Source: Diacronema lutheri (taxonomy: Eukaryota > Haptophyta > Pavlovophyceae > Pavlovales > Pavlovaceae). From it: a stretch of 64,000 nucleotides of DNA. Below are positions 27,568-39,098 of the stretch, piece by piece (the stretch's first letter is position 1; each line of letters starts with the position of its first letter). The position numbers and the translations under genes are program-made. The stretch is from assembly GCA_019448385.1 (NCBI GenBank), contig JAGTXO010000060.1, forward strand, positions 141,606-205,605, in the 5' to 3' direction. The notes below the pieces were generated by a model that ran no database searches, was not told where the DNA came from, and worked only from the letters and a program-made list of their open reading frames with translations.

Positions 27568-27673
27568 GGGACGCCCTCCTGCCGAACCTCGGGAGGACGC
27601 GGATAGGAAGATTTGATTTGGGTGAAGAGTTGCAAAAGCAACTCAAACCGAAGGCGCGAAACCAAACGTCGCG

Positions 27674-28675
27674 ATGCCCACTTCAGCGACGCCAAACACT
27701 CCGAAGACGGTGCCGGTCGTCTGCCGGAAGCTGTGGCTCACCGCGGGGCTTGCGTTCACGGCGGGGTACACTGACGTAATCTGCATTGCGCGCTACGGCT
27801 GCTTTGCCGCGATGCAGACGGGCAACTTGATCTACACTTCGCTGGCGCTCACGAGCAACGGCGCGACCGGCCTCTACCACCTCGTGCCCATCGCGGCCAA
27901 CTTTGCGGGCGTGGTGCTCCTTGGCGGATGGGTCGTACGCAAGCCGTGGCTGATCGCTCCGCTCGGCGCACCGCTCCTTCTCGCCTCCTTCCTCGCGTGC
28001 GACGCGCTCACGTGGGCCGGGTACGGCGGTGGGCTCGGAGGGAAGCTGCTCGTCTGCTTTCCCGCGCTCGCGATGGGCGCGCAGAACACGCTGACCAAGG
28101 AAGGCGAGCTGGGGCTGATGACGACGCTGCTCACGGGCAATCTGCAGCGCGTCGGCATCTCGGTCTCGATGGTCCTCCACGGCGACGAGATCGACTGGGA
28201 CGAGGTATGCTCATCCGGCGCACTCGCGCGCGCGCCCGACCCGCTCGGTGCAGCGCGCGCAGCGCGCGCGACGCCGGCGTTCCTCCTGACGCGCCGCCGT
28301 CCTGCCACCGCACCCACGCCTGCGCGCGATCTGGCCCCCGCGCTCACGTTCCCCCCCCCCCCCCCCCCCCCTCCCCGCCGGAGCGCACAGGTGCTCACGG
28401 TGGTCACATGCTTGACGGTGATTTTCTCGACACTGCTCGGCGCAATCATCGGAGCGTCCGCGTCGTTCTTCCTTGGTGCGTGGGCGCTCGTCCCTGCGGG
28501 TGCGATTCAGCTTTTCTGCGTGGTCGGCTATGCCAATGCGTATGCTCCTGCGTGCCTGCCGTGCGCGCGCACGGGCATTTCAGGCGCTGCCGCCGAGACG
28601 CGTGGCGTGGCGAGCGGCAACACGCAGCCGCTCCTCGCGGCCGGGCCGCCTGCGGTGGCCACAGCGGTCGTCTGA
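27674..28675 (+). CDS. DUF1275/YoaK-family membrane protein, 2 exons
   Basis: Exons 27674-28204 and 28391-28675, 271 aa. About six membrane helices. The family signature GYTDVICIARYGCFAAMQTGNLIY near residue 30, MGAQNTLTKEGELGLMTTLLTGNL and the last helix pair are typical. Donor GTATGC and acceptor CAG join GDEIDWDE to VLTVVTCLTV. The 186-nt intron is a multiple of three without stops, so retention would insert 62 residues rather than end the protein. Molecular function of the family is unknown. Confidence 0.85.
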   Translation: MPTSATPNTPKTVPVVCRKLWLTAGLAFTAGYTDVICIARYGCFAAMQTGNLIYTSLALTSNGATGLYHLVPIAANFAGVVLLGGWVVRKPWLIAPLGAPLLLASFLACDALTWAGYGGGLGGKLLVCFPALAMGAQNTLTKEGELGLMTTLLTGNLQRVGISVSMVLHGDEIDWDEVCSSGALARAPDPLGAARAARATPAFLLTRRRPATAPTPARDLAPALTFPPPPPPPPRRSAQVLTVVTCLTVIFSTLLGAIIGASASFFLGAWALVPAGAIQLFCVVGYANAYAPACLPCARTGISGAAAETRGVASGNTQPLLAAGPPAVATAVV

Positions 28676-28992
28676 GGCGAGGGCGCGGCGCCGTGCCCGT
28701 CCAGTCGGGGTCTTGTCGCTCAGAGCGGGTATTATTTTGTCTCCGACGATCTTCGGGCCTCGGCGTGCGCGTGCGCGTCGGCCGGTGGTGTGATTGACGG
28801 CAGCCACCGGTGCGGCGGCGCGCGGGCGGCGGCGCGCGGTGGCTAGGCGCGTGTGGGCCTTTGGGCCTGCTCCGCCTGGCGCCTCGCTGCGCACTTCCTG
28901 ACCCCATCCGTCGACCCGTCGGAAAGCGTCGTTAGTATTATTTTGTCTGGCTGGGCGGAATCGAGAGAACTCGGACTGACGCCGACATTCCT
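28676..28992. other. tandem intergenic region with repeated A/T motif
   Basis: No gene seen. The motif tattattttgtct occurs twice, at about 28731 and 28936: once about 55 bp after the upstream stop and once about 57 bp before the next ATG. It may mark 3'-end formation or a promoter; this is inference. Confidence 0.35.
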
Positions 28993-31900
28993 ATGAACGC
29001 CGACGACAGCTCGCTGCTCGCGGCTGCCGATGAGCTCGCAGCGGCGCTGGATGGGCAGCCGTGCGCCACGTCGGCGCCGTGCTCCGTCCTCTTTGAAATC
29101 GCCGACACGCGCTGGTTCGTCGTCTTCGACGGCGCGGTGGCGCGCGCGGCGCGCGCCCCGGCCACGCCGGCCGCGCCGCCGGCCGCGGACGCGTCGATCA
29201 CCTGCCGGGACGCGAAGCTTGCGCGGCGGCTGCTGGCGGGCGAGCTCAAGCCGGCAGCTGCGCTCCTCCGCGGCGGCCTGAAGGCGCGCGGCGACACGCG
29301 CCGCCTCCAGGCCCTCGGCGCCGAGCTGCAGCGCACGCTCGATACGCCGCGCTTCCGCGCCGCCGCGGCCGCCGCGGCTGCGCGCCTCGGCGTCTCCACC
29401 TCCTTCGACGCAGAGGTGGCCATGGCGGCGGCGCAGGATGACGCGAGCGCCATCGGCGCATCGCTGCTGCCGCCCGCACCGCCGTACCTCGCCGCGGGCG
29501 TGGTGGGCGCGCGCGGCATCGCCTTGCGGCGCGACGCGTCGGCCGGCCCGGTCCCAAACGCCCTGCTCGGCGCGTCTGTCCTCGTGACCATCGCATCGCC
29601 CGGCCCGCCGTTCGCCATCTACAACGTGGTCATCTCGCTTCCGCCGCCCGCGCGCGCCGCCCTCGGCCTGTCCGTCCCGCCTGGCGTCGAGTGTCCATCC
29701 GCTGCGCTTGCGCTCCTCCTCGGCGCACGTGTCGACGCGGAGTCCGGATCCGTCGTTGTCGGCCGGCGGTGCGCGCAGCGGGGCGTGCGGCGGCGGACAC
29801 CTTGGCGCCCTGTGCTACCCGCGCAAACCCTTTGCCAGGCTCGCGCGCACGCGCGCGCCCATTCGCCTGCCCGCCACGCCAAATCGCCCGTATCGTTGTC
29901 GCCCCCCCCCCCCCCCCCCGCCCCCCCCCCCCCCCCCCCCCCCCCTGTGCCCGTGGCGCCTTTGAACCTGCGCGGCGCAGCTACTCGCAGTTTCGTCGGC
30001 TGCACGCCGCGCTCGCCGAGCCGACGCTTGCCGAGGCTGCCGAGCTCGTCCCCATTGCTGACGCCCCGGGCGCGTCGCCCGCCGCCGCAGCCGCCGCTGC
30101 CACCTCCGCCGCGCCGCCATCGTCAACTGGCCTCGGCGCGCAACGGCTGCGCGCGCTGCCGGCGTTCCCGCCAAAACAGCCGGTCGCGTGGGCATTGGGC
30201 CGCGCTTCGGCGGAGGCGGCGCTCGAGACGCGCCGCGCTGCGCTCCAGGCGTACCTTCAGGCTATCCTCTCGCCCGCCGGTTCGCTCGTCGGCACGCCGC
30301 CGGCCGCGCCGCCGGCCGCGCCGCCGGCCGCGCCGCGGCCCGCGCCGCAGCCACGCGCGCCGCGCGCGCCGCCGGCGGCGGGCCCGCCATCCGCGCCGGG
30401 CGGCAGCCATTTCCCATCGGCGCACTGTGCGCAACTCGTGTACGCCTTCTGCGGCCTCTGCCCGCTCGAGTTGACAGCGCGCGCTGCCGGCTCCGCGCCG
30501 CTGGCGTCGCCCGCGCGCGCGCGCGCCGTCGGCGCCGGGCGCGCGCCGCACGCGGCGCCCACGCCCGCCCCGGCCTCGCCCTCAGCCGACACGGCGGCCT
30601 CGCCCTCCGCCACGGCCATCGCGCCCCTCAGCCGCGTGAGCGCGCACCACGCGCCCGCGCGGCGTGAAACCGCCGGTTCGACCGTTTCAACGCCACGTGC
30701 CCTCCACAGCCGCACGGGCACGGGCGTAACCGGCGCTTTCGCGCACGCGCCCGACGCAACGGTCGGCATCACGGCGGCGCGCGCGGCGGAGGTGGCGGCA
30801 GCGGCGGCGCGCGACGAGGCGCGCGCGTTGCGCGCCCGTCTTGACGCGCTCGAGGAGGCGAGCGCGCGCGGCGACGCCTTTGGCCTTGCGCTCGCGAATG
30901 CGGCCGCGCGCCTCCTGCTCACCCTGCGCGATGCGCTCGTGTGCGCGCTCGAGCTCGCGATCGTCGCGATGCTCACGCTGGGCGCACTGCGCTGCGCGGG
31001 CGCGCTGTGCGGGCTCACGCTCCCCGCGCCCACGAGCGCCGCGCTGCGCGCCGCCGCGCGCGGCCGGCCGTGGGCGATGGCGGCGCTGCGCGCAGCGGCA
31101 GTTGGCGGCGTCTTCGCGCCCGCGCGCACCATCGCCCTCTCGTCGACGATGGCAATGCCCGCCGCGGCGGCTAGGGGCACGCGGCTGCGCGCGCCCGCGC
31201 GAGCCACGCCCGCCGCCGCCGCCGCCGCGCCCGCCGCCGCCGCCGCCGCGCCGGCCGCCGCCGCCGCCGCCGGTGGCGCGCCGCCGGCGGCGTCCGCGGC
31301 GCTCGCGGGCGCGTGGGGCGTGCGCGCCTTCTTGCGGCTGTGCCATCGACAGCTTTTCGTCCTTGTCTCGTCGCTCATCGTGGGTGCAATCCTCTGGTGG
31401 ACAAGTGTGCTCACGAGGCGGTTACGCATTCGGGGCGGCCAGTTGTGGGACACGGCGTGAGCGCAGTGCGCGACGGCGCGCCGCGCCGCCGCTGCGCCCT
31501 GGCGCGCGGCGCGCACGCCGCGCCGCGCCGCGGCGCGCGCCGACCCCCCCTTCCCCCGACCCCCCCCCCCACCCCACTCCACCCCACCCTCTTGGTGCCC
31601 CCCATCCTTTTGGTGCCCGCCGCACTCTGCCCTCTCGCCATCCTTTTTGTCTGTGCGTGTCTGCCCGTGTCCACCCTGTGTGTCTCTCTCTCGCTTCCTG
31701 TCTCTCTTTGCCTGAGTAACCGTATGTGCCCGTACGTGTAACCGCCTGTGTAACCGCCTGCTTGCGTGCGTGTGCGAGCGCAGCTACGCAATCACCGCGC
31801 CGTTCATTTACGAGTCGATTGTGGGTCTGCGCGGCCTGTGGATCAAGACGGGCCAATTCATTGCAAGCAGGGCCGACGTGACGCCCGAGCCCTTCGTGAG

Positions 31901-34900
31901 CGCAGCGCCCAGCGCCCAGCGCCCATCGCGCGCCCCGCGCCCACCCTGTTCACGCGCACCGTTTGACGCGGCGTGCCGCTCAAATTAGCCGCGCGCTGAG
32001 CTCGGCGCCTCGCCCGTTGCGCAACCAGCCGCGCGCTGAGCTCGGCGCCTCGCCCGTTGCGCGGCCTTGCGTGCGGTGCTGCGGAGCGCGGCAGGTCCGG
32101 TCGCTCTCGAGGCTGCAGGACCGCGTGCCTTCGTCGCCCTTTGCGGACGTGGCGGCGGCGATTGCCGACGAGCTGGGCGCTGCCGCCGCCCACCTCGCGC
32201 CGACGTCGGGGCGCGCAACGCACGCGGCGGCCGCCTCCGACGACAGCGCAGCCGCCGCGCTCGGCGCGGACAGCGCACGTGTGCTGCGCGTGTGGCCCGA
32301 GGCCCTCGCGACCGCTTCCATCGCACAGGTCCACCGCGCAACCATCGTGCGCACGCGGCGGCGGCCGCGCGCGGGCGCGGGCGCCGCTGCGAGCGCGGGC
32401 TCGGGCTCGGGCGACGCCGCGAGCACGGGCGCGGGCTCGGCCGACGTCGGTGCGCAGGGCGGCGCGGAGGGCGCGGCGTACGACGAGGTGCTCGAGGAGG
32501 TCGTTTTTAAAGTGCAGCACCGCGGCATCGCGCCCGTGCTTCGTGCCGACTTGTTCGCCGTCTGGGCGATCACGTGGGTCACGGCTCAACTGACAGTGCA
32601 CGACCTTCGACCAATCATCGCCGAGTTTGTCCAGGCCGTGCAGTGCGCGCGGCGCGCGGCCCGCGAGGAGCGGCCCGCGTTGCGCGGCCATGCGCAACGA
32701 TGGCGGCGGTGCGAGCAGCGCGCGCCCTCAACGCACTCGACGCCTGCCCGCCCTCGCCCCCCTTCCCCCTTTTCCCCTTTTTTCCCTCTCCCTGCCATGG
32801 CGGCAGGCGCGAGCTCGATTTTCGCATCGAGGCAGCCAACCAGGAGCGCGCACGACTTGCCCTTCTCCGCTCGGGCATCGACGTGTCCGTGCCGCAAGTC
32901 GTCTGGCCGCTCTCGCGCCGCACCGTGTTGTGCATGCAGTACGTGCATGGCTTCAAGGTGCAACGCGCGAGGCCAACGCGGCGCACCGCACCGCGGCGCA
33001 CGTGCTGGCGCAGCGCGCGCGCTGATGCGGGGAGGGGGGCCGCCCGGCGCCGCGCGACGCGCGCAGGTCACCGACGAGTCTGCGCTGGGCGCGGCGCGCG
33101 TCGACAAGGAGGCGCTCATCTCATCCGTCTGCGCGGCGTTCGCCTACTGCGTGCACATTGACGGACATTTCTCGGGCGATGCGCACCCGGGCAACATCCT
33201 TGTTGTGCCACGCACGCGCGTTGGGACGGGCGAGCCGGCGGGCGGGCAGGCGGTCCTGCTTGACTGGGGCCTGGCCAAGACGCTGTCAACTCGTAACCGT
33301 CTTGCCATCTCGCGCGTCGTGTGGGGCGTGGCGACGAGCGACATGTCTGAGATGCTGCAGGGCTTTGAGGACGTGGGTGTCAAGCTCGGCCGCTTCGACC
33401 CGACCGAGGACCTCAACAACATGCAGCACATGGTGTGGGCGCCGCCCGCTGCAGCGCGGCGCTGTGTTGCGCGAGAGAGAGTGCGGTGTATGTGTCGGCT
33501 GATTGGGCCTGTCCCGCCCCGCTCACATCGCGGCTTCAACGCCGTCCCCTATTCTCAAATCCGCCCCCCGCCCCTTCCCCTTCTTTTTGCCGCCCGGCGC
33601 AACGAGCAGTTCCGCGACACGGCGCCAGCAGCCGAGGCGCGCGAGCGTAACCGTAAGCACATGCAGGGCTTCATCGCGAAGCGGCAGGCCGAGGCGGACG
33701 CCAAGCTGAGCGCCCCGCCCGTCGAGGTGCCCGGCGATTTGCTCTTCTGGGTGAGCATGCACGCGCGCGCGCGCGCGCGCGCCGCGCCCATTTGCGAAAG
33801 CGGGCGGCGGCTCTTTGCTGCCGGCATTGGCTGCGTTCGGACGGCCGCCATGTGTCCCATGGCCGCCATGTGTCCCATGGCCGCCATGTGTCCCATGCGT
33901 TCTTCTCCCTTCCCCGCTGAATCCCCCCCCCCCCTTCACCCCCTTTGAACGCGCTCAGGTGCGCACCACGGAGCTGATGCAGGGCCTCGCCTCGCAGCTT
34001 GGCTTGCGCCTGAGCTACATGAGCCTCGTCAAGCCCTTCGCACAGCAGGCCTTGCGCGACGCGACGCGCGGCCGCGGCGCGACGGTCGACGACGGAGCGG
34101 CGCAGGATGGGCACGGAGATGGAGATGGGGATGGAGATGGAGATGGGCACGGAGATGGGGATGGAGATGGAGATGGAGATGGGCACGGCGACGTCGCGGC
34201 CCCCGCCAACGGCGGCGAGGCGGCGCTTGCCGAGCCCAACCCGCCTTCCTCCGATCCGCCATCCTCGCCCGCTCGGCGAGAGACCGCAATCGTTACCGCG
34301 CGTAACGGGAACGGTGCCGCGCGCAACGCTGCCAAGGCCTACTCGCGCGCCGCGGCGGCCGTCGCGACCGCCGCGGTGCGCGGCGCGGCCGCCCTCTCTG
34401 CCGCGGCTGGAGGTGGCAGGGCGGCGCCGAACGGCGCCACCGCGCCGCCCGCGCGCGCGCTCGATTGCGCCGACGCGCCACCGGGCGCGCGGCTGCGTGC
34501 GCGGCTCGGCGCTCTCGTCGCCGAGATGCTGGCGCGCGGCGAGCTGCTCGGGGTGCAGGTCGCCGTCGTGCAGCGCGGCGCACCGCTGCTCGAGCTTGCG
34601 CGCGGCTGCCTCGGCGCCGCGGACGCGCGCGCGGTGACGGGTGAGACAATCTTCCCGCTCCTCGATCTTTCAAAGCTGCTGCTTAGCGCTCTTGTGCACC
34701 GTGCGGTTGCGGCTGGCGCCTTTGGGCCGCGTGGCTATGATGCGACGATTACGAGCGTCTGGCCGGGCTTTGCGGGCGGTGGTGGTGGCGGCGGCGGTGG
34801 CGGCGGTGGCGGGAAAGGCGACGCGCGCGAGGAGGCAAAGCGCGCGCTGACCGTGCGTGACGTGCTGCGCCATCGGCTTCAAGGCCTCGAGCATGCAATG

Positions 34901-35524
34901 CCGCCCAAAGTGTCCTTCGGATCGCTTGCGGATCCGCGCGCCGGTCCTGCCGCGCTCGAGGCCGCGCTCTGCCGCCCCGCTCGCGCCGAGCGGGGCGGGG
35001 CTGAGAGCGTCGATGACGGTGGCGGCAACGACGGTGGTGGCGACGGCGCTGCTCTGCCCTCCGCCGCCTACTCGTGGCTCGCCGGCGGCTGGTTGCTCGC
35101 CGAGGCGCTGCGCCGCGCGACGGGCCGCACCCTCGACGAACTGGCGCACGATGCCGCGCTGTGCGCGGGCGCGCGCGCGTCGGAGCTCTACGCGAGCGGC
35201 GTGGGCGACAGCGCGCGCCTCGTCGACGGTGCGCAGCTCGACGCGGCGGCTGCCGCCGACGAGGCCGAGGCGGTCGCGCGCGAGGCCGCGCGCGGCGGTG
35301 GAGAGGGGACGCAGGCGGGTGGCGCCGCTCGCCCAGCCGGCCCAGCCGCGCGCGTCGACGAGCCGCGCGCGCCCGACGGATGGCGCGGCGGGATCGCGCG
35401 CCTCGAGCTGCCCGCAGCGGAGGGTCTGTCCGCGCTCTTCGCCGCTGGCGCCGTTTCAAATCTCGCCTTGGACGATGGCGGCGTCGATGGTGGCGCCAAC
35501 GGTGATGGACCGGCCGGCGGTGCG

Positions 35525-35569
<45 letters not shown>

Positions 35570-36469
35570 GACGACGAGGCGAGCAGCGGCGGTGCCGTGG
35601 ACGCCAGCTCCGCGCGCGCCGCGCCCGCGCCCGCCGGCGCGTTGCACGCGCCACAGCGCCTCATGGCGCGCAGGCTGCGCGCCAGCCTGCGCGAACTAGT
35701 CGACGACGCCGCCGACCGCCGCGCGCTCGTGCGCGCGGCGCAGTCGCTCGTCCTGCCCGCGCCATTCCTCGCGGACCCGCGCGTGTGGAACGCGCGCGCG
35801 CTGCGCTGCGCGAGCGTGCCCGCCATCAACGCGCACGCGTCCGCGCGCGCGCTCTGCGCGCTGCTCGACGCGCTCGCAGCCGGAAAGTTCGCCGCGCCCG
35901 CCGCCGCTGCGCGCGCGCCCACGGACGTGGCGGAGGCGGCCGCCGCGTCGACTGCACTCGCGGCGGGCGATGGCAACGATGGCGACGACGCGCCCGCTGC
36001 CGAGCGTTCCCGCGCGCTGCTCGCCGATTGCCTCGCGCAGCCCGCGGTGGAGCGCGACTGGCTGCGTGCAATGCACCGCCTCGTCGCCCCGCCCGACAGC
36101 CACGGTGGCGAGCTGGCGGCCGCGCCGATCCGCTTCGCCGCCGGTGCGCAGCTTTTCCGCGTCGAGCCGCCGCTCGCCGGGCCGCCGGGAGGGCGCCGCG
36201 TCGCGCCGGTTGGCGCGCGCAATGGCGAGCATGGCGGCAGCGGCGCGTACGGCGCGACCTGCTTGCGTCTCTTTGGCGGGCACATTGCGCTGACTGACCA
36301 GAGCAGCGGTACATCGATTGTTGTGTTAACCAACCAACTCGCGCCGCCCGCCGGGCTCGGCGGGCTGCTCGGCGTGGCGAGCGGCGACGACGACGAGCGG
36401 ACGCCGGCCGAGCGGATCGTGCGCGCGGTCTGCGCTGAACTGGGCATCGGTGCGCCCGTGCTCTACTGA
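28993..36469 (+). CDS. SCP2 - PX - membrane - ABC1 kinase - beta-lactamase-like fusion, 8 exons
   Basis: Exons 28993-29768, 29981-31456, 31784-31895, 32095-32642, 32807-32957, 33067-33432, 33610-33750, 33959-36469; 2026 aa. Order: SCP2 sterol-binding-like domain (ITCRDAKLARRLLAGELKP, about residues 70-110); PX domain starting at the second exon (RRYSQFRRLHAAL, LPAFPPK); hydrophobic segments near 570-600 and 717-733; ABC1/UbiB kinase with KTGQ, ASIAQVH, VVFKVQH lysine, ELDFRIEAANQE, GDAHPGN and DWG; acidic Gly/Asp/His repeats; then a beta-lactamase/LACTB-like domain from about 1370. The kinase plus lactamase part matches the Arabidopsis At5g24810 type. Exon 2 ends GGQLWDTA at GTGAGC, whose TGA would otherwise be a stop; splicing on gives WDTAYAITAPFIYESIVGL, matching the plant kinase N-terminus. 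Alternative: two genes with the SCP2-PX protein ending at 31460. Confidence 0.8.
33842..33896 (+). repeat. 18-bp triplicate in intron 7 of the fusion gene
   Basis: Three consecutive copies of ggccgccatgtgtcccat within the intron 33751-33958. Confidence 0.85.
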
Positions 36470-36633: not shown

Positions 36634-39098
36634 CTACGGCCGCGCAGGCGTCGGCGCCTCCGGCGCGGGCGGCGTCACCAGCGCGCGGCGGCGGAGCGCC
36701 GCGCGTCGCTCGGGCCCGACCAACTCGAGGCCGTCCGTCAAGAAGCCGAAGATTGACGCGCCGTCGCCGCACGCACGCGCCTCGGCCGCCGACTGCGCGA
36801 CGCGCGCGTCCGTTAGAACGCCGACGACATGGCCGATGACGATGAGTGTCGGCGAGCGCAGCCGCGCGGCGGCGACTGCGGCGGGCAGCGCGCCGAGCGG
36901 CGCGCGGACGACTCGCTGGCGCGCAGACGTGCCCTCCTGCACGGCGACGGCGGGGATGTCCGCAGGCAGCCCCGCGGCGACCAACCCCGCCGCGAGCTGC
37001 GGGAGCGTCGCGAGGCCCATGTACACGACAAGCGTCGTTCGCTCGCACGCAAGCCTGGAAGGCGGCGCGGAGGGCGGGCAGGACGGGAGGAAAAATGCCA
37101 GGGGGATGGGGGGTGTGCAGGTTGGGCGGCGGCTGAGCGGGCGCGCGCAGAGACGGCCGGCGCGCGCCGTCCGCGCGCGCCGGCGGCTCGCGCGCGCGGT
37201 GGGCGCTCCGCACTTTGCAAAATCGAGATCGAGCTGAGGGGGTGGGTGCGGCGACGTCGCCTCGCCGCCCTCAGGTCCGGTGCGCGCCAAATCCGCGTCC
37301 GTACTGCCCGCGCGCCGCGCGAGCGCGCGCCGCTCCGCGCGCGCGCGCGCAGCTGCCGCCTCGCCGCCGTCGCCGCCGTCCGCAGCCGCGCACGCCGCCG
37401 CCGTCGCCGCGCCGCCGTCGGCGGGCGGAGGGCGCGCGCGAGGCTCCACCGCCGCCGCCCCGGCCGACTGGCCGCCCGCAGCCGGCGCGCGCGGCGCCTG
37501 CAGACCAGCGTCGGCCGCCGCCGCGGCCTCGCGCGCGGCCACGGCGACCGCGTCGGCCGCGGCGGTCAGCGGCTCGTCGGCGGCGCGCGAGTGGCCAGTG
37601 ACGAAACGGACAGAGTCTGCAAAGTCGCGGTGAGTGAGGGGCACGCCAAGGGTCGCAGCGACACCAGCGGCCGCGGTGATCCCCGGCACGATGTGCACGG
37701 GCACGCCCCTCTCCTCGAGGTAGGACAGCTCCTCGCCGCCCCTCCCGAACACCGTCGGGTCACCGCCTTTGAGTCGAACGACCAATCTCCGTTGGCGCGC
37801 GTACCACCAGAGCAGCCTGTGAATCTCCTGGAGCAGCGCGGCGTGCAACGGCGCGAGCGGGACGGGCGGCGAGCGGCGAAGGGTGGGACACGGCACACGC
37901 CCGCGCGATGCGGACACGACGGTGGCGTGCGACGTGTGGCGGCCGGGCCGCGGCAGCGCGGCGATGGAGGCAGCCCGCGCCCAGGCCGGCGCCCACCGCA
38001 CCAGCCAACGGACGGGTGGGCGGCCATCGGCTGGGGGGGGATCCCGTCGGCTGGGCTCGACATCGCCACGCACACCCCGCGCGCCGCAGCCGCTCTGCTC
38101 CCGCCCGCGCGACCCCCCCCCCCCCCCCCCCCCCCACCCAAAAAAAAACGGCCCCCCCCAACTGACGCGGCCATTTCCGCCATGCTCACTCCGGCGCGCA
38201 TCGCACCGCATCGCAGCCCCCGCAGCGCGCCTCACGTGCTGCGTCCTCGAATGCAAGTCCCGCTCCTTGCCCACGTAGACGAGGGTCGCGCTGGGCGAGG
38301 CGCAGCGCAAGATGTCCGCCGAGACGAGGCGGTCGTAGAGCACGAGCTCCGCCGTCGCTGCGTCCGACAGAACGCGCGCCGACCGGGGCGGCGGCGCACG
38401 GGGCTCGCGCAGCGCGTGAGGCGAGGGGATGGCGGCGGCCCTTGGAACGCACGTGAGGCGCACGGGGCGCGCGCAGCGCGTAAGAGCGGCCGTGCACCGC
38501 GCGCGCTGGCACAGCCGGTGGGCGACCGCACCACGAGCCTCGCGCCGCGCGGCCACTCGCGCGCGCGCGCCGACGCTGCCGGGAGCCGCGCAGCGGCCGA
38601 GGCGCGAGCGGCGCCGGATCACTGCGCGCGCCCCACGCGCACGCCGGGCGCACCAAGGAGCCGGAATGCCTTGAGCGTGAGGAGCTCCGGGTCGCCCGGC
38701 CCGCAGCCCACGAGGTAGACTGACGACGGCCCCTCGAAGCCACGATCTCCGTTCGCGCCGCCGTCAACGCCTGGCGCGCGATCGCGGCGCTCGCTCGCAG
38801 CGTCTGCGGCCGCGGCCGCGCGCGAGAGCGCGGCGTCACGCGCGGCTCCAAAGCTGGCGAGGTGGTCGTCCGTGAGCCCAAAGCTAGCGCCATTGTCGTC
38901 CGCCGCCTCGCGTGGCGACGTCAAGGCCGTTATCGCGAACGCGCCGCGCGCGGCGCGCGCGCGCGGTGGGCAGCGAGTAGTTGGGCGCGGCGCGCGCGCA
39001 CGCGCGCCGACGCGGCCGGCGGCCATAGCGGACGCGGAAGCGAGCGTGGCGACGAGCACGCCGACGGCCAGCAGGCTGGCTAGCCGGACGGTGCGCAT
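36634..39098 (-). CDS. uroporphyrinogen-III C-methyltransferase (SUMT), 4 exons
   Basis: SAM-dependent methylation of uroporphyrinogen III towards siroheme. Exons 39098-38654, 38357-38236, 37827-37214, 37054-36634; 533 aa. Motifs: [121 protein letters not shown]. The N-terminus ([20 protein letters not shown]) is a signal peptide followed by an Arg/Ala-rich stretch, fitting plastid import. Between the VTGHS segment and TTLVVYMG there is an about 110-residue Ala/Asp-rich insert absent from bacterial SUMT. Introns are GT-AG (GTGCGC, GTGAGG, GTGCGG); a G run on the printed strand marks one acceptor. Convergent with the fusion gene (164 bp). Confidence 0.93.

Follow-up and report, generated by a model that had tools for sequence, protein, structure and literature searches.

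Proteins in which an ABC1 kinase domain is joined to a beta-lactamase-like domain are known from plants, as a sequence-only reading of the DNA studied here had noted: ABC1-S12 was described in 2006 for Arabidopsis At5g24810 and rice LOC_Os06g48770, and was predicted to be mitochondrial (PMC1560137, in excerpt). Here, we describe a gene of the haptophyte Diacronema lutheri located at positions 28993-36469 (forward strand) of a stretch of 64,000 nt (hereafter, the window; positions 141,606 to 205,605 of contig JAGTXO010000060.1, GenBank assembly GCA_019448385.1). Its predicted product resembles the plant proteins in that ABC1 is followed by a class-C beta-lactamase-like domain, and differs from them, as they are described in the accessible parts of that paper, by the addition of SCP2 and PX domains and by the loss of the Ser of the SxxK motif (PMC1560137). 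Judged by sequence, it belongs to an apparently undescribed family with the order SCP2, PX or FYVE, hydrophobic segments and ABC1, usually followed by beta-lactamase, in which PX and FYVE share one slot.

In E. coli, the genes ubiE, ubiJ and ubiB adjoin. UbiB has ATPase activity, and UbiJ binds intermediates of the quinone pathway through its SCP2 domain (PMC6747719, in excerpt). This pair is like the window protein in matching an SCP2 lipid carrier with an ABC1 ATPase; it is unlike it in consisting of two proteins, with an SCP2 domain that is remotely alike and with neither PX nor FYVE reported in the excerpted text (PMC6747719). For Coq8, ATP hydrolysis has been suggested to be coupled to the extraction of quinone precursors, and the distribution of quinones in yeast is influenced by Cqd1 and Cqd2 (PMC8346625, in excerpt); Cqd1 also forms a contact site and has an effect on phospholipids (PMC10214851, in excerpt). 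These yeast proteins share with the window protein the ABC1 domain and, in their roles, the handling or distribution of quinones; they differ in being mitochondrial, and the excerpts of both papers do not mention SCP2, PX or beta-lactamase (PMC8346625, PMC10214851). A term search of an open-access library returned no paper combining ABC1 with beta-lactamase, FYVE, SCP2 or PX, and the same search misses PMC1560137, which was found by gene name. The domain combinations are already visible in database annotation; what is new is to read them as one family.

Gene model

The gene consists of eight exons separated by GT-AG introns, and its splicing yields 6081 nt encoding 2026 amino acids, with a single stop at the end. 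An independent reading and scripted splicing gave exons and length identical to those of the 2026-aa model that had been proposed from the sequence. The features are the following:

28993-29768, 29981-31456, 31784-31895, 32095-32642, 32807-32957, 33067-33432, 33610-33750 and 33959-36469, forward strand: exons 1 to 8, all GT-AG
28993..29346, forward strand: SCP2-like lipid-carrier domain (aa 1-118, exon 1), by Pfam, family profile, and AF2 with Foldseek
29560..29768, forward strand: N-terminal half of the PX domain, in exon 1, ending on the second base of the Arg259 codon, by Pfam and hhalign
29769..29980, forward strand: intron 1, GT-AG, interrupting the codon of Arg259 (RRY motif of PX) after its first two bases
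29981..30278, forward strand: PX domain, C-terminal half (exon 2), with PPK at aa 322-324 and ETRR at aa 341-344, by Pfam and hhalign
30279..30767, forward strand: Pro/Ala-rich linker, with a weak coding signal in the codon-usage scan
30768..30884, forward strand: Ala/Arg/Glu-rich stretch (aa 522-560), with a good codon score (blocks 30793 and 30943)
30912..31016, forward strand: hydrophobic segment 1 (aa 570-604), Kyte-Doolittle maximum 2.34
31338..31415, forward strand: hydrophobic segment 2 (aa 712-737), ahead of intron 2, Kyte-Doolittle maximum 2.12
31437..34063, forward strand: ABC1/UbiB-type kinase (aa 745-1225), running from the last part of exon 2 through exons 3-7 into the first part of exon 8, with the introns between them
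31457..31783, forward strand: intron 2, whose donor GTGAGC holds an apparent TGA stop
34466..36469, forward strand: degenerate beta-lactamase-like domain of class C/S12 (aa 1360-2026), with the stop codon, by Pfam and PDB

That the front and the kinase half form one polypeptide is supported by three lines of evidence. A second D. lutheri locus, deposited as KFE25_014324, encodes SCP2, PX, hydrophobic segments and ABC1 in one open frame. Among 13 relatives, ten have PX or FYVE above the Pfam cut-off before ABC1, and 12 have beta-lactamase behind it. Lastly, exons 3 and 4 contain no in-frame ATG, and none occurs between exon 3 and the stop that precedes it in the kinase frame, while hydrophobic segment 2 lies ahead of intron 2. 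The absence of such an ATG argues against a separate kinase gene downstream; transcripts starting between 31461 and 31783 had been named by the sequence-only reading as an outcome that would overturn the fusion. Transcription of 28993-36469 as one mRNA would be expected, the gene being known here from genomic sequence.

The PX domain scores 19.1 bits on exon 2 alone and 23.6 bits once intron 1 is removed; since it passes the Pfam cut-off (21.6) only in the latter case, the junction of exons 1 and 2 is supported. Exon 2 remains open from PX through hydrophobic segment 2 and the LWD stretch up to the TGA at 31458, which lies inside the donor of intron 2, just as had been claimed for a phase-correct splice with GTGAGC hidden in an apparent stop. 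Trying donors at 31420-31519 with acceptors at 31600-31859, we found four frame-keeping GT-AG pairs, all of which use the acceptor at 31783. Of their four donors, only 31457 leaves the LWDTAYAITAPF stretch whole; the sequence-only reading had said that this splice restores a segment of the plant kinase.

Codon usage was scanned in 150-base blocks after training on 23 loci and the frame of the second D. lutheri gene (its short intron left in), leaving out L010 and L015, which are parts of the two genes under study. The frame of the model ranks first in 27 of 33 wholly exonic blocks, the exceptions being 30493, 31093, 32293, 34093 (a repeat), 34843 and 35293; at block 30493, in the linker, the opposite strand scores higher. 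Of two wholly intronic blocks, 33793 scores low and 31543 does not (9.1 at best), so that the scan says little on introns.

Domains of the predicted protein

With Pfam cut-offs of 22.9 bits for ABC1, 27 for Beta-lactamase, 21.6 for PX and 21.3 for SCP2, the spliced model has the order SCP2, PX, hydrophobic segments, ABC1 and beta-lactamase, and the four-domain architecture first read from the sequence stands, with SCP2 borderline. SCP2 reaches 21.6 bits on exon 1 alone. A PDB search with the single sequence gave E 0.46 at best and was replaced by a profile of 14 family N-terminal domains, which matched solved SCP2 structures in PDB at E 3e-11 and a D. lutheri SCP2 with an hhalign probability of 95.8% over 45 columns. 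An AF2 model of residues 1-118 (12 aligned rows; pLDDT 79.7, pTM 0.68), with its first helix starting at residue 3, had 36 Foldseek matches at E <= 0.001, including the SCP2-like part of alkylsulfatases, human SCP-2L and UbiJ-SCP2. The SCP2 assignment is thus borderline by Pfam on the window sequence alone and much firmer by family profile and predicted fold.

The PX domain was aligned piecewise, because whole-length alignment misplaces it; a further alignment, which puts exon 1 in the wrong place beyond SCP2, was set aside. A profile built from six PX domains of D. lutheri matches the window stretch with an hhalign probability of 95.5, and one built from seven PX domains of the family matches solved PX structures, best Nischarin (E 1.3e-14). 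The contact residues R259 and Y260 (RRY), K324 (PPK) and R343 are kept. The Arg-Tyr of RRY, the Lys of PPK and the Arg that follows have the roles known from p40phox, and such PX domains, as well as FYVE domains, bind phosphatidylinositol 3-phosphate (PI3P); the kept residues suggest that the window PX may dock on PI3P too. Behind PX and the linker, the Ala/Arg/Glu-rich stretch (aa 522-560) is, judged by eye, a probable coiled coil. At least one hydrophobic segment stands ahead of the kinase in 13 of the 17 chains examined.

ABC1 (PF03109) scores 133.2 bits on the spliced model, over aa 922-1119. Genome-wide searches listed the ABC1 domain of the window, in two pieces, and its beta-lactamase. 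The kinase keeps K772-T-G-Q (KxGQ), ATAS at 860-863, K927, D1059 and D1087-W-G, i.e., the KxGQ motif, the Ala-rich loop, the catalytic Lys and Asp, and the metal-binding DxG. It matches ABC1 proteins in PDB (COQ8B at E 0.004), and it may hydrolyse ATP.

The Beta-lactamase profile scores 54.3 bits (aa 1375-1602), and matches in PDB are weak (best E 0.004). SxxK reads D1426-L-S-K, with the catalytic Ser changed to Asp. YxN and KTG/HxG are the second and third motifs of class C/S12 serine beta-lactamases; the third is degenerate here. The sequence-only reading had included a hydrolase fold in the polypeptide; with the Ser lost and the third motif degenerate, a working hydrolase is unlikely in the window gene. 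Exon 8 also carries a GATGGG/GATGGA-type repeat encoding a Gly-Asp run (around 34106-34189) and a GAC-rich run encoding poly-Asp (around 35531-35579). The search of the genome for beta-lactamase gave seven matches, including G000:C44:19882-20292 on the minus strand and three similar ones on contig 71.

A second D. lutheri gene

The genome-wide ABC1 and SCP2 searches meet on one open frame of 1132 aa on the minus strand of contig 12 (L026, paralogue B), in which SCP2, PX, two hydrophobic segments and ABC1 follow one another before a stop. It corresponds to the deposited protein KFE25_014324 (P0017 in our numbering), with 100% identity over 96% of the query. The deposited protein has 1042 aa versus 1086 aa in the raw frame, which fits one short intron in the kinase. 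Pfam gives L026 25.6 bits for SCP2 and 153.6 bits for ABC1, and its PX was found by hhalign at 93.4% with a profile of three sequences. An AF2 model of P0017 (14 rows; pLDDT 66.5) has matches to both COQ8A and human SCP-2L on one chain; because its confidence is low over PX, the PX of P0017 rests on hhalign and on the name of its UniRef cluster, PX domain-containing. P0018 is closely related (58% over 52%). KFE25_014324 is thus like the window gene in carrying SCP2, PX, hydrophobic segments and ABC1 on a single chain, and unlike it in the absence of beta-lactamase and PPK and in a kinase that falls in a separate group (100/100, see below). None of the seven genome-wide beta-lactamase matches lies on contig 12.

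Relatives and the kinase tree

A protein search gave 16 hits, of which 13 were counted after three Closterium ABC1 proteins with other domains (P0014-P0016) had been dropped. P0017-P0019 stand outside these 13-row counts, and P0020, one weak hit of a later search, is in no count or tree. By Pfam, all 13 relatives have ABC1, and all except P0013, the tail of which is apparently frame-shifted (by eye), have beta-lactamase. FYVE is above the cut-off in six, PX in four and SCP2 in five, with P0012 below the SCP2 cut-off (14.3 vs 21.3). The motif R(R/K)HHCR is preserved in six of seven FYVE-like domains. P0013 has SCP2, PX and ABC1 in the same order as the window gene. P0001 (Scytosiphon), P0002, P0008 and P0011 share its domain order and kinase group, and differ from it by FYVE in the place of PX and, in P0002, by an additional START domain. 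This lipid-binding domain (aa 1316-1481) apparently lies within the beta-lactamase region of P0002. Three EukProt rows carry transcript-assembly names (e.g., TRINITY_DN3841), and the row label 'Clim' probably means Corallochytrium limacisporum. In viral contigs, 19 stretches were matched, six of which code for relatives of ABC1 with 25-30% identity.

The search for the same order elsewhere found both halves on one chain in relatives and at the second D. lutheri locus. To the sequence-only reading the front had appeared to be spliced on here; it is not a novelty of this alga, as a similar front occurs in relatives from other algae and protists (in several with FYVE for PX) and in the second gene. 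From the latter and from the layout that the relatives share, we conclude that the window gene is a family member and not a one-off fusion.

The kinase tree comprised 26 rows: 17 of the family, eight other D. lutheri ABC1 loci taken from 58 genome-wide ABC1 matches, and E. coli UbiB, the sole named outside reference (there is no named COQ8 row). The root was set at the midpoint; branches are long for several of the outside rows. The 17 family rows cluster apart from the eight D. lutheri loci and UbiB with support of 96/94, and within them P0013, P0017, P0018 and P0019 cluster at 100/100. These four show no beta-lactamase, an absence that is firm only for P0017, as P0018 and P0019 look incomplete and the tail of P0013 is unreadable. 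By tree path, the FYVE-bearing P0009 and P0001 and the front-less P0010 lie nearest to the window gene, followed by P0005 and P0006, which bear PX. PX may have been gained once or repeatedly in the family.

Proposed function

On balance, we lean towards the view that the gene is real and encodes one membrane-anchored protein of the UbiB/COQ8 (ABC1) family, which would handle lipids on PI3P-bearing membranes at the expense of ATP. PX (or FYVE in other family members) would dock the protein on a PI3P-bearing, endosomal membrane, in which the two hydrophobic segments would anchor it. ABC1 would hydrolyse ATP and help to pull a hydrophobic lipid, a quinone or another isoprenoid, from the bilayer, as proposed for Coq8; the SCP2 cup on the same chain would receive the lipid and pass it on to a membrane or enzyme partner. 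In D. lutheri, the beta-lactamase-like part may serve as a scaffold or sensor, since its nucleophile is gone. The cargo (possibly quinones) is suggested by analogy, with the UbiJ/UbiB pair as the nearest functional precedent.

Several observations weigh against this view. On the full chain, SCP2 scores only 17.8 bits, under the cut-off, and genome-wide searches at E 0.001 listed neither the SCP2 of the window (two matches) nor its intron-split PX (20 matches). The family SCP2 profile is closer to ordinary SCP2 than to UbiJ (hhalign to UbiJ, 12%; E 0.029 to the UbiJ structure 6h6n; Foldseek match of UbiJ-SCP2 weaker than that of SCP-2L), so that a quinone cargo is an analogy. The window PX contains long inserts, the DFG of the kinase is DWG (1087-1089), and the linker at 30343-30790 is weakly coding in the codon-usage scan and could conceal another in-frame intron. 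In paralogue B, Pfam finds no PX at E 1, and the PX lacks PPK. Amongst the relatives, the FYVE of P0003 is under the cut-off (19.9 vs 27.8), P0010 (Eimeria) is devoid of SCP2, PX and FYVE, and P0012 of PX and FYVE; the SCP2-PX/FYVE front is therefore not universal in the family. P0004, P0005, P0006 and P0010 have no hydrophobic segment above the threshold. The tree does not settle the position of the window gene within the family, and does not group it with the PX-bearing P0004-P0006. Finally, no D. lutheri protein of this gene was found among deposited proteins of 1114-3545 aa, nor among those of about 453-1440 aa, where the search was apparently swamped by low-complexity words; the public annotation thus probably breaks or misses the gene.

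Alternative explanations

ABC1 domains are mostly associated with mitochondria or plastids, and the protein could be a COQ8-like factor of quinone biosynthesis inside an organelle, with SCP2 and PX as non-functional remnants or protein-protein modules. The mitochondrial prediction for plant ABC1-S12 (PMC1560137, in excerpt), the lack of PX/FYVE in some relatives and the modest SCP2 and PX scores speak for it. We nevertheless consider it unlikely, given that R259, K324 and R343 of PX are kept, that R(R/K)HHCR survives in six of seven FYVE-like domains, that PX and FYVE substitute for each other in one slot, and that no targeting peptide is seen (by eye only) ahead of SCP2, where the first helix of the AF2 model begins at once.

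It is improbable that the beta-lactamase-like domain works as a hydrolase on SCP2-bound lipid under regulation by the kinase: SxxK is intact in eight of the 12 relatives with this domain, but in the window gene DLSK stands in its place, the third motif is degenerate, long inserts of low complexity occur, and YxN is YSW, the Asn being missing there as well as in the relatives aligned at that position.

Very improbable are two adjacent genes, one for an SCP2-PX membrane protein that stops with the TGA at 31458 and, downstream, a plant-type ABC1-beta-lactamase gene: an in-frame TGA is indeed removed by intron 2, the description of the plant proteins names just ABC1 and S12 (PMC1560137, in excerpt), the joined protein is apparently missing from the deposited annotation, and an internal start in exon 2 is possible (in-frame ATGs at 30969, 31077, 31149 and 31155), but the kinase half has no in-frame ATG from its preceding stop through exon 4, hydrophobic segment 2 and LWD lie in exon 2 before intron 2, and the second locus and the relatives hold both halves on one chain.

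Genomic neighbourhood

Just upstream of the gene, TATTATTTTGTCT occurs at 28730-28742 and at 28936-28948, 206 bp apart; these are the only two exact copies genome-wide, and shuffled window sequences contain none. The upstream neighbour (27629-28675, forward strand) encodes a DUF1275 (YoaK-like) domain (79.6 bits). Downstream, at 36637-38763 on the reverse strand, lies a gene with a TP_methylase (tetrapyrrole methylase) domain, scoring 105.7 bits in two stretches, in which introns are likely; by eye, its product resembles uroporphyrinogen-III methyltransferase. Long poly-C tracts were seen at 29902-29945 in intron 1 (with one G inside) and at 28351-28371, probably in an intron of the DUF1275 neighbour.

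Implications

A wider idea is possible, which we hold tentatively and with some doubt: the family may be an ancient eukaryotic lipid extractor facing the cytosol, in which a UbiB-like ATPase and a UbiJ-like SCP2, placed on PI3P membranes by PX or FYVE, would shuttle quinones or other isoprenoids between organelles. If true, selection would have maintained PI3P targeting as such, given that two unrelated PI3P-type binders, PX and FYVE, replace each other in one slot. The route by which hydrophobic quinones leave the mitochondrion for other membranes has been called a "longstanding mystery" (PMC8346625, in excerpt). An ABC1 protein with a lipid cup of its own and a PI3P-type address would link this kinase family to endosomal membranes and to lipid transfer.

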